Origin: Halogranum rubrum
Lineage (GTDB): Archaea; Halobacteriota; Halobacteria; Halobacteriales; Haloferacaceae
Assembly: GCF_900114455.1 (NCBI RefSeq)
Contig: NZ_FOTC01000001.1
Location: 62,001-126,000, forward strand
DNA: 64,000 nt
Direction of reading: 5' to 3'
Shown here: positions 5,579 to 54,719 of the stretch, piece after piece
How the letters are laid out: every line of letters begins with the position of its first letter
Numbering within the stretch: the stretch's first letter is position 1
Program-made: the position numbers and the translations under genes
The notes under the pieces: model-generated
The model's database searches: none
What the model was told of the DNA's origin: nothing
Seen by the model: the letters and a program-made list of their open reading frames with translations, nothing else

Positions 5579-5693
5579 GGGCCGGTAGCTCAGTTCGGCA
5601 GAGCGTCTGGCTTTTATCGTGACTACGCGAGCGGTTTTGCGCGTGGTTGCGGGAGACACCAGACGGTCGGGGGTTCAAGTCCCTCCCGGCCCG
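5579..5693 (+). tRNA. tRNA-Lys(UUU) with a 41-nt BHB intron
   Basis: The acceptor arms GGGCCGG (5579-5585) and CCGGCCC (5686-5692) pair fully, with discriminator G5693. The D-arm is GCTC/GAGC, the anticodon stem TCTGG (5606-5610) pairs with CCAGA (5659-5663), and the T-arm is GGGGG/CCCTC around TTCAAGT. The loop reads C32-T33-TTT-A37, giving anticodon UUU. The intron is 5617-5657, between positions 37 and 38. The pre-tRNA folds into a textbook bulge-helix-bulge: 3-nt bulges 5615-5617 and 5656-5658, separated by 4 bp (5611-5614 with 5652-5655, including two G-U pairs), followed by a 12-bp intron helix (5618-5629 with 5640-5651). Confidence 0.93.
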
Positions 5694-13426: not shown

Positions 13427-13709
13427 GACGTTCGGCGCGCTCTTCTATCGTTGACTACTCGTCACGCTTAGCGAAACTCGTCGTACTTTTCGACGTCACG
13501 AGTTTACTACCTCTCGAAATCGACGTGCCGAACTCAGCGCGCATCTACAGCAAAGTGGCAATCAGATATGTAAATATTATTATAACGATTAAAGACATAT
13601 CATGAATAACTATCGTTGAAGTGCGGGATATGAAGCCCCTAACTAGAAATATCCTCAATATACTTACTACGGCCCCAGCCAATGTAGGTAATAGTGGACG
13701 ACTCCACAT

Positions 13710-13798
13710 GAAAGGGTCGCTCAGTCTGGCCAGAGCGCCCACCATCGTGGTGGGTGGCCTGAAATATGGCTACGGTGGTTCAAATCCACCCCCTTTCG
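13710..13798 (+). tRNA. Unusual class II-like tRNA or tRNA pseudogene
   Basis: Acceptor GAAAGGG (13710-13716) pairs fully with CCCTTTC (13791-13797), with discriminator G13798. The D-stem GCTC/GAGC and T-stem GGTGG/CCACC around TTCAAAT are intact. A 19-nt variable region can form a 5-bp arm (TGGCC/GGCTA, one G-U), as in Leu/Ser tRNAs. The anticodon stem CCCAC/GTGGG is followed by the loop CATCGTG. Position 33 is A instead of the invariant U, and two further pairs could close the loop to a TCG triloop. By position the anticodon would read TCG (Arg), but the loop is abnormal. Probably a degenerate or element-borne tRNA. Confidence 0.6.
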
Positions 13799-13854
13799 TT
13801 CATCTTTTCTGGGCTACTAAGACACATAGTCCCTAACTACGTTAGTGATACAGT

Positions 13855-52544: not shown

Positions 52545-53729
52545 ATGACCGGTCCTCCACTCCCTTTCAGCCGACAGACGCTCGTCGGACTCCTCCTCAT
52601 CGGCGTCGTACTCCCCGCAGTCATCTGGGCGTCGGTGGGTGCGATAGACGATGGGAGTCCGTCAGTCGACGCGAACGTGACCGAGCGGTACGACTCTCTC
52701 GACGCCATCAGTGGCACGCAGACCGTCGAGATACGGACCAACGGGACCGTCACGTCTCGGAGTGTCGCCACTGTCACACTCGTCCCCGACACCGACCGGA
52801 AGCGTGTCCGGTTCCACGACGGCGCGAACCGTCAACATCAACTCCAGGTCTCGAACGGGTCGACGCTGTGGCTCCACGACACCGACCAGAACACCGTGAC
52901 GGTCTACCAGTTGACCGGACCACCGACAGAGTCGTCTACAGCCCCCCGCATCCAAGGACTCGTCACTGCCGCGGGGCTGACCGACGACGCAGGTCGACCG
53001 CAGTCCATCGGCGTCTCACCGTTGCCCGTCTTACCGCGACACACCGGCGTCGCTCCGCAGGTGGACGCCAACTGGAGCTACGGCGTCGAGTTCGTCGAGA
53101 CTGACACCGTCGGCGGGCAAGACGCGTACGTACTCGAGATTGCCCCCACGAGCAACCAGAGCGAGGCGCAGTACCGACAGCGACTGTGGTTCGACACCGA
53201 GCGGTTCTACCCGCTCCGTAAGCAGACGTCGTGGACCGACGACGGGACCCAGCGGTCGGTGACGACGACGTACACGAACGTGACGTTCGATGCGGAGGTG
53301 TCCGAAGACACGTTCCGTCCCGACATCGGAGACGATACGACGGTCCGGCGGCCCGAGTTCCCCGACAGAGAGTGGTACCAAAGTCGCGCCGACCTGCGAG
53401 CGCAGAGTTCGATGTCGGTGCCGAACCCGACGGTACCACCCGCGTTCGAACTGGTCTACGCCACGCAAACGACGGGACGCATCGACGGCGTCGGACTCAG
53501 CTACGTCGCCGACGGCCGCGAACTGACGGTGGCGAAGTTCAACTACACCCTCGGCATCGACCCCGACGAGCGTGACCTGACACTCGACGGTCGACCGGCG
53601 TCGCTCGACCCCGGACCGACCATCTCGCTCTCGTGGGACTGCAACGGGTACGGGTACACCGTTCGCGGAACCGGTGTCGAGACCGACCAACTGGTCGAAG
53701 TCGGCCGGTCGGTGGGCTGTCCCGTCTGA
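52545..53729 (+). CDS. Exported LolA-like protein
   Basis: A 394-residue protein. An N-terminal membrane span or signal (residues 8-30; LVGLLLIGVVLPAVIWASV) is followed by a domain of the LolA/RseB kind: YDSLDAISGTQTVEIRTNG, RKRVRFHD, QYRQRLWFDTERFYPLRKQT and YTNVTFDAEVSEDTFRP. LolA carries lipoproteins in bacteria; haloarchaeal forms have an unknown role on the outside of the cell. A C-terminal beta domain follows. The candidate structured RNA starts 70 bp downstream. Confidence 0.75.
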   Translation: MTGPPLPFSRQTLVGLLLIGVVLPAVIWASVGAIDDGSPSVDANVTERYDSLDAISGTQTVEIRTNGTVTSRSVATVTLVPDTDRKRVRFHDGANRQHQLQVSNGSTLWLHDTDQNTVTVYQLTGPPTESSTAPRIQGLVTAAGLTDDAGRPQSIGVSPLPVLPRHTGVAPQVDANWSYGVEFVETDTVGGQDAYVLEIAPTSNQSEAQYRQRLWFDTERFYPLRKQTSWTDDGTQRSVTTTYTNVTFDAEVSEDTFRPDIGDDTTVRRPEFPDREWYQSRADLRAQSSMSVPNPTVPPAFELVYATQTTGRIDGVGLSYVADGRELTVAKFNYTLGIDPDERDLTLDGRPASLDPGPTISLSWDCNGYGYTVRGTGVETDQLVEVGRSVGCPV

Positions 53730-53740
53730 TTTCTGCCGAA

Positions 53741-53755
53741 TTTCTGGCCCAGAAA
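53741..53755. promoter_or_regulatory. Palindromic operator candidate
   Basis: TTTCTGG-C-CCAGAAA, perfect 7-bp arms around one base. It ends 11 bp upstream of a TATA box (53767-53774), a position where a bound protein could help or block transcription. Confidence 0.5.
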
Positions 53756-53766
53756 CTCGTCCTCTG

Positions 53767-53774
53767 TTTATATG
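53767..53774 (+). promoter_or_regulatory. TATA box without a downstream protein gene
   Basis: TTTATATG, a good archaeal TATA element. Transcription would start near 53796-53799, exactly where the multi-stem structure begins. The next protein gene starts 260 bp further on with its own TATA element (54001-54009). Confidence 0.55.
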
Positions 53775-53798
53775 CTCCGACGGTCCGTCGGTCGAAGT

Positions 53799-53890
53799 AC
53801 GATGGGACAGGACGTCTCGACACGTCTACGCTCACCGGTCGTCCGGTGATGTGCCTGATGTGCCTCTGACAGCACGACACGTCCCATCGT
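53799..53890 (+). ncRNA. Candidate structured RNA, four-way junction
   Basis: A 92-nt segment with a 10-bp perfect closing stem (53799-53808 with 53881-53890: ACGATGGGAC/GTCCCATCGT). Inside are three hairpins: GACGT/ACGTC (53811-53815 with 53822-53826), TCACCGG/CCGGTGA with a TCGT loop (53832-53838 with 53843-53849), and GTGC/GCAC (53860-53863 with 53872-53875). A TATA box lies 29 bp upstream and a palindrome before that. It does not fit a tRNA: there is no T-loop, and the closing stem is too long. No long ORF; a 15-codon frame from 53802 is an alternative. No match to a known RNA was recognised. Confidence 0.42.
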
Positions 53891-54000
53891 CGTCACCGCT
53901 GACGCATCAGCCCCTCCACAGTATCGCCGTACTGTTCCGACGGCCCCGCTGTACACTCGGAACCGGTCGACGTGACCGTCCGTGTCCGAAACCCGTGGGC

Positions 54001-54009
54001 CTATTAATA
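54001..54009 (+). promoter_or_regulatory. TATA box of winged-helix gene
   Basis: CTATTAATA, centred about 30 bp before GTG 54035, fits a leaderless transcript and supports the GTG start. Confidence 0.55.
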
Positions 54010-54034: not shown

Positions 54035-54406
54035 GTGAGTGAGGATCCGGCGTTGGGCGAACTTCTCGACGTCCTTAGCGACGAGTACGCCCGGGACATC
54101 CTCGCAGCGACGAGTATCAAACCAATGTCCGCACAAGAGCTCGCAGACGAGTGTGAGATGTCCAAGCCGACGGTCTACCGGCGGGTAGAGCGGTTACAAG
54201 CCCACGGACTCCTCGACGAACAGACGAAGGTGCAGACCAGCAGTAACCACTACAGCGTCTACACGGCGACGCTCTCGAAAGTCTCGCTCGAACTGGACGC
54301 CGGGTCCTTCGAAGCAGCCGTGACGCGCACCGACGACGAATCGTTCCCCGGCGAGCGAGAGAGCGACACCGCCGACCGCTTCACGAAGATGTGGGAGGAC
54401 CTTTGA
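54035..54406 (+). CDS. Winged helix-turn-helix regulator
   Basis: A 123-residue ArsR-like protein. SDEYARDILAATSIKP, then SAQELADECEMSKPTVYRRVERLQ, is a clear helix-turn-helix, followed by a wing (HGLLDEQTKVQTSSNHYSVY). No ligand domain is present. It pairs with the membrane protein gene one base downstream, a common pairing in haloarchaea, which suggests that the membrane protein senses and the HTH protein responds. Start GTG 54035. Confidence 0.85.
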   Translation: MSEDPALGELLDVLSDEYARDILAATSIKPMSAQELADECEMSKPTVYRRVERLQAHGLLDEQTKVQTSSNHYSVYTATLSKVSLELDAGSFEAAVTRTDDESFPGERESDTADRFTKMWEDL

Positions 54407-54407
54407 G

Positions 54408-54719
54408 ATGGTGTCCGTGACCGCCGTCGTCGACGTGCTCATCGTCGTTCTCGCGCTCGGGTCGACGCTCGTCGGCGGCTACGTGGGCTATCAGGCCTAC
54501 CGTGGGTATCGTCGCCACGACAGCCGAACGATGCAAGCGCTCTCGCTGGGACTCTTCTTCCTCACGGCCGTCGCGTTCAGCATCGCCTTCGTCGGGTCGT
54601 TGCTCCTCCGCGAAGGTATCCTCGGGTTGCAGTACCAGCAGGCGCTCACGCTCGTCACGCGACTGTTCCAGTTCCTCGGCGTCCTGCTCATCGCCTACTC
54701 GCTTCACTCGCGAGGGTAG
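54408..54719 (+). CDS. Membrane protein paired with HTH regulator (DUF7521-like)
   Basis: A 103-residue protein with three membrane spans (VVDVLIVVLALGSTLVGGYV; ALSLGLFFLTAVAFSIAF; FQFLGVLLIAYSL) and a basic loop YRGYRRHDSR. It starts one base after the winged-helix stop, so the two are surely co-transcribed. DUF7521 by resemblance only. It may hold or sense a signal for the regulator. Confidence 0.78.
   Translation: MVSVTAVVDVLIVVLALGSTLVGGYVGYQAYRGYRRHDSRTMQALSLGLFFLTAVAFSIAFVGSLLLREGILGLQYQQALTLVTRLFQFLGVLLIAYSLHSRG

Follow-up and report, generated by a model that had tools for sequence, protein, structure and literature searches.

Which function is served by the interval between a LolA-like (lipoprotein-carrier-like) protein gene and a winged-helix regulator gene in Halogranum rubrum? 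We examined this interval within the window, that is, the whole 64,000-nt stretch of DNA analyzed here, to which all positions refer. In the Halogranum window, direct reading of the interval between the two genes gave a palindrome, a TATA box, and a 10-bp inverted repeat, and an earlier note had proposed that this arrangement represents an independent, regulated RNA gene. The features of the locus are listed in Table 1.

Table 1. Features of the LolA-like–regulator interval and its neighboring genes (window positions)
Feature	Position	Strand	Basis or remark
LolA-like (lipoprotein-carrier-like) protein gene	52545..53729	+	Upstream of the RNA; Pfam LolA_like, E 1.9e-5, under the curated cut-off; syntenic homologues
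Operator-like palindrome TTTCTGGCCCAGAAA (TTTCTGG-C-CCAGAAA, 15 bp)	53741..53755		Precedes the TATA box of the RNA wherever the RNA occurs
RNA-gene TATA box TTTATATG	53767..53774	+	Conserved; fixed spacing to the stem
RNA core closed by stem P1	53799..53890	+	Covariation, fold z-scores
Hairpin P2	53810..53827	+	Minimum-energy fold; window species only, absent from homologues
Hairpin P3	53829..53853	+	Fold; hairpin recurs in most close homologues, register and sequence shifted
Hairpin P4, conserved loop motif CCTCTGACAGC	53856..53879	+	Close relatives only, little variation
3′ domain: CTGACG hairpin, C-rich CCCCTCC (53911–53917), hairpin ACAGTA..TACTGT	53898..53935	+	Conserved past the previously reported end
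Decayed operator copy upstream of the regulator gene	53977..53991		Window retains only the GAAA half
Regulator-gene TATA box TATTAATA	54002..54009	+	Direct reading; aligned across homologues
Winged-helix (HTH_20) regulator gene	54035..54406	+	Pfam HTH_20, E 1.2e-12; GTG start; probably leaderless
DUF7521 small membrane protein gene, paired with the regulator	54408..54719	+	Pfam DUF7521, E 3e-11

Distribution of the interval among haloarchaea

When 170 genomes of the family were searched at the DNA level, approximately 15 contained the complete interval at the corresponding location, with 69–75% identity, and a search with the LolA-like protein added more distant members to the homologue set. 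RNA loci were found in at least eight genera, namely Halogranum, Haloferax, Halogeometricum, Haloprofundus, Halobellus, Haladaptatus, Halomicrococcus, and Haloarcula. The Haloferax loci were those of H. prahovense, H. massiliensis, H. sulfurifontis, H. denitrificans, H. gibbonsii, H. marisrubri, H. elongans, H. larsenii, H. mucosum, and H. mediterranei (on pHME505, between E6P09_RS16760 and E6P09_RS16765), and Halogranum amylolyticum provided a sister locus within the same genus. The LolA-like gene was syntenic at all RNA-bearing loci. A covariance model built from 15 sequences detected a single convincing copy in each genome, which in every case lay between the LolA-like gene and the regulator gene and never apart from the latter; matches with E > 0.002 outside this neighborhood were taken as chance. 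The RNA was missing from two Halobellus loci that kept the LolA-like gene, the operator, and the regulator, and it was not found in Haloferax volcanii in these searches. Conspicuously conserved in the alignment were the palindrome, the TATA box, P1, and CTGAC.

The closing stem covaries across genera

P1 is a perfect 10-bp inverted repeat, ACGATGGGAC (53799–53808) and GTCCCATCGT (53881–53890), exactly as the earlier note had described its closing stem. It was retained with compensating changes in all 15 close homologues. Across all lineages, the stem was represented by 22 distinct arm pairs, in which 92.9% of cells were paired (27–62% in slid-partner controls) and six of the nine pairs showed changes on both sides. 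The covariation score of P1 was 0.478, compared with 0.248 after shuffling and at most 0.230 after sliding, although complementarity partly guided the placement of the 3′ arm in distant lineages, which favors structure, and the shuffle test retains this bias. In Haloarcula, the whole stem was swapped, from GCGATGGG/CCCATCGC to GCAGCGGC/GCCGCTGT. P1 is thus a covarying stem of the kind that marks a conserved structured RNA. The caution that a 10-bp repeat might occur by chance can be relaxed, because the unit occupies the same place in other genera and P1 covaries.

At its energy minimum of −44 kcal/mol (z = −2.9), the window RNA was predicted to fold into a four-way junction bearing three hairpins, and none of 200 dinucleotide shuffles was as stable; 15 of 18 homologues also had a fold z-score of −2.5 or lower. 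The reverse strand folded equally well (z = −3.2), so the fold by itself counts for little and cannot assign the strand, which is given by the palindrome, the TATA box, and conservation. The four-way junction proposed earlier was therefore reproduced as the predicted fold in the window but not as a conserved feature, because P2 is specific to the window, P3 shifts in register, and P4 is confined to close relatives. Likewise, when homologues were inspected for changes that break the stems, P1 stood, but the inner stems were only partly retained. Within the P4 region, CTCTGACAGC was almost invariant in the alignment of close homologues. The proposed 92-nt unit agreed with the core, but conservation ran beyond its end to approximately position 53935: CTGAC was retained in every RNA-bearing lineage, and a CCCTCC-type segment stood out in the alignment, being looser in Haloarcula. 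On sequence comparison, the conserved feature is P1 together with the 3′ domain, and hairpins P2–P4 are not ancestral.

The RNA motif TGATRTGCCTCTGACAGC occurs a second time in Halogranum, at positions 140893–140930 of contig C14 (loci L066/L002), a place that is not conserved. Five Haloferax genomes (L062–L065 and L070) also carry it, at a conserved site downstream of an HPP-family gene. At these other places, TGATRTGCCTCTGACAGC lies directly 3′ of a small hairpin. The complementary strand of the copies would pair over approximately 23 nt, and no conserved antisense promoter was visible at them. The second sites may represent a copy, a protein site, or a pairing partner.

Promoter and operator-like palindrome

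An intergenic sRNA gene in haloarchaea is expected to have its own basal promoter and to be followed by a gene that also has its own promoter. Both were found here. The TATA box of the RNA was read where the earlier note had placed it and was conserved in homologues; TATAT and the 5′ arm of P1 were separated by 30 nt in every measured lineage but one (29 nt in G383), with 35–74 nt between the two arms in the same measurements, and a transcript start is expected near position 53797. No terminator was recognizable after the RNA. The downstream regulator gene has its own TATA box, as had been proposed, with the start codon at leaderless spacing from the box, and also an operator.

The palindrome was read where the earlier note had placed it, immediately upstream of the RNA TATA box, and it is conserved there in every lineage that has the RNA. 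In the aligned loci, the same motif occurs at a fixed place ahead of the regulator's own TATA box, where it is intact in Halobellus and nearly intact in Haloarcula, and this copy is also present at loci that have neither the LolA-like gene nor the RNA. The motif search that had been recommended was run on 10 genomes and returned only two to four near matches per genome; besides the regulator promoters, several near matches outside the locus adjoined paralogues of the regulator–DUF7521 pair. At three such loci (L163, L170, and L175), the operator is located 42–66 bp before the paralogous regulator gene. Because the motif is associated with the promoters of the regulator and its paralogues, the palindrome is probably the binding site of the adjacent winged-helix regulator. 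Its location ahead of the TATA box is compatible, in archaeal promoters, with activation as well as with repression.

The regulator–DUF7521 pairing is retained at the paralogous loci, and at L163, L166, L170, and L175 the same operator occurs near the paralogues, which suggests a haloarchaeal family of self-regulating regulator–DUF7521 modules. Separately, a short inverted repeat resembling CGGTCGCCGCGACCG is located at approximately positions 53961–53980 in the window, and in close homologues, ahead of the regulator promoter. It is present in lineages in which the regulator-side operator has decayed and could be either a substitute for that site or a hairpin formed in RNA.

Proposed function and alternative explanations

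We consider that the interval probably constitutes an independently transcribed, regulator-controlled small RNA gene of a new family, as the earlier note had proposed in outline; the conserved promoter and operator, the covarying stem with its fixed spacing from the TATA box, and the lack of a coding signal point to this. Three other explanations were weighed against it. The interval might contain a leaderless short ORF or a leader peptide starting from the ATG at position 53802, which the earlier note had put forward as a 15-codon alternative. The spacing between the TATA box and this ATG suits a leaderless start, the Haloferacaceae and Haladaptataceae homologues retain the codon, as in fact do all lineages but Haloarcula, and five Halobellus species have a common 30-codon frame; however, that frame lacks codon bias, and the frames from the ATG vary in length between 5 and 87 codons, with peptides that are unrelated to one another. 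The differences by codon position were flat (0.40/0.31/0.36 and 0.09/0.11/0.07), unlike those in the regulator gene of the same genomes (0.04/0.04/0.18). Since Haloarcula has lost the ATG from its arm and yet maintains the stem by compensating changes, and since there is no codon-position bias, a peptide is very improbable, and the earlier statement that the unit has no protein gene of its own is sustained. The interval thus has the absence of protein-coding capacity expected of an sRNA gene. As a separate observation, the start of the Haloarcula RNA (L144–L148, L114–L116, and L126) carries a four-codon frame, ATG/GTG CAG CGG SCN stop, in which the stop is retained as TAA or TGA; this is possibly due to chance. 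It is similarly hard to credit that the inverted repeat acts at the DNA level, as an operator or the remnant of a mobile element that is not transcribed as RNA. Protein sites can be inverted repeats, the reverse strand folds equally well, and one motif recurs at other loci, but the arms of P1 are 30–74 nt apart at lineage-specific distances, the repeat keeps a fixed place on the downstream side of the TATA box, and the turnover of whole arms with pairing kept is unexpected for a protein-binding site.

The chief competing explanation is a long 5′ leader acting in cis: transcription from the upstream promoter would enter the regulator gene, and a leader of approximately 230–330 nt would control how a second isoform of the regulator mRNA is translated or how stable it is. 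The constant proximity of the RNA and the regulator gene, the moderately constant distance from the stem to the regulator start (221–334 nt), the operator common to both promoters, and the lack of a visible terminator are all consistent with such a leader. On the other hand, no conserved element overlaps the regulator start codon. Because the regulator has its own TATA box, with its start codon at leaderless spacing, and because two Halobellus loci lost the RNA but kept both neighbors, we regard the leader as rather unlikely.

If the interval is a small RNA gene, it would encode a structured RNA of roughly 95–140 nt. The neighboring winged-helix protein would bind TTTCTGGNCCAGAAA just upstream of the RNA TATA box and, originally, also upstream of the TATA box of its own gene; since this site precedes the TATA boxes of both, the regulator may control the RNA and itself together. 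The least certain steps concern the RNA, which might be a regulatory sRNA that acts in trans; P1 would shield its 5′ end, and the unpaired CTGAC and CCCCUCC segments would base-pair with target mRNAs, either from the same envelope-related module or from elsewhere. The most extended form of this proposal, in which an order-wide archaeal sRNA family and a winged-helix autoregulator with a common operator form a mixed protein–RNA circuit controlling the LolA-like/DUF7521 envelope module through pairing by CTGAC and CCCCUCC, is put forward only tentatively.

Comparison with known RNAs

Searches against Rfam 15 with sequences from three lineages gave no match at the gathering threshold or at relaxed E-values. 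The only signal from the leuA-Halobacteria RNA (RF03001) was on the opposite strand and at chance level, with 11.9 bits where the gathering score is 47.9; this haloarchaeal family and other Rfam cis-regulatory families are likewise structured RNAs. A box C/D or H/ACA guide RNA was considered for the CUGA and TGATG boxes and rejected, the boxes not being conserved and Rfam giving no match; no conserved RTGATGA box was seen in the alignment by eye. Elsewhere in the window, the Rfam list contained a tRNA at 5579–5693 (115 nt, possibly intron-containing) that was not in the ARAGORN list, and ARAGORN reported a tRNA-Arg at 13709–13799 that was not in the Rfam list.

We identified no published transcript of the locus. 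Sets of intergenic sRNA genes are likewise known in haloarchaea from an H. volcanii deletion study (PMC3956466) and from H. mediterranei (PMC5852579). The RNA locus was matched to no entry of the latter list. Identity with HM48_V of that list, which is located on pHM500, was rejected as unproven, as the surrounding gene order misfits the pHME505 annotation; HM48_V is probably at a different place from the RNA locus. Most published haloarchaeal sRNAs are restricted to a single species or genus, and 22 of the 27 H. volcanii sRNAs studied had no homologue in other haloarchaea (PMC3956466). Among archaeal sRNAs, a structured RNA that covaries across Haloferacaceae, Haladaptataceae, and Haloarcula and is tied to a regulator site would be unusually old and open to testing. 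Its absence from the H. volcanii results could explain why it has been overlooked so far, and it is present in the tractable genera Haloferax (H. mediterranei) and Haloarcula.

The closest counterpart by description, the only level at which the two were compared, is sRNA132 of H. volcanii, an intergenic RNA of 138 nt with its own BRE/TATA promoter, a predicted structure, a downstream gene with its own promoter, and a conserved gene neighborhood, which has been reported only in Haloferax (PMC6560208). The RNA proposed here resembles sRNA132 in its intergenic position, its own promoter, the separate promoter of the downstream gene, the conserved neighborhood, and the predicted structure. Unlike sRNA132, it spans at least three families of the order, lies at another locus, and is accompanied by an operator that it has in common with the adjacent regulator.
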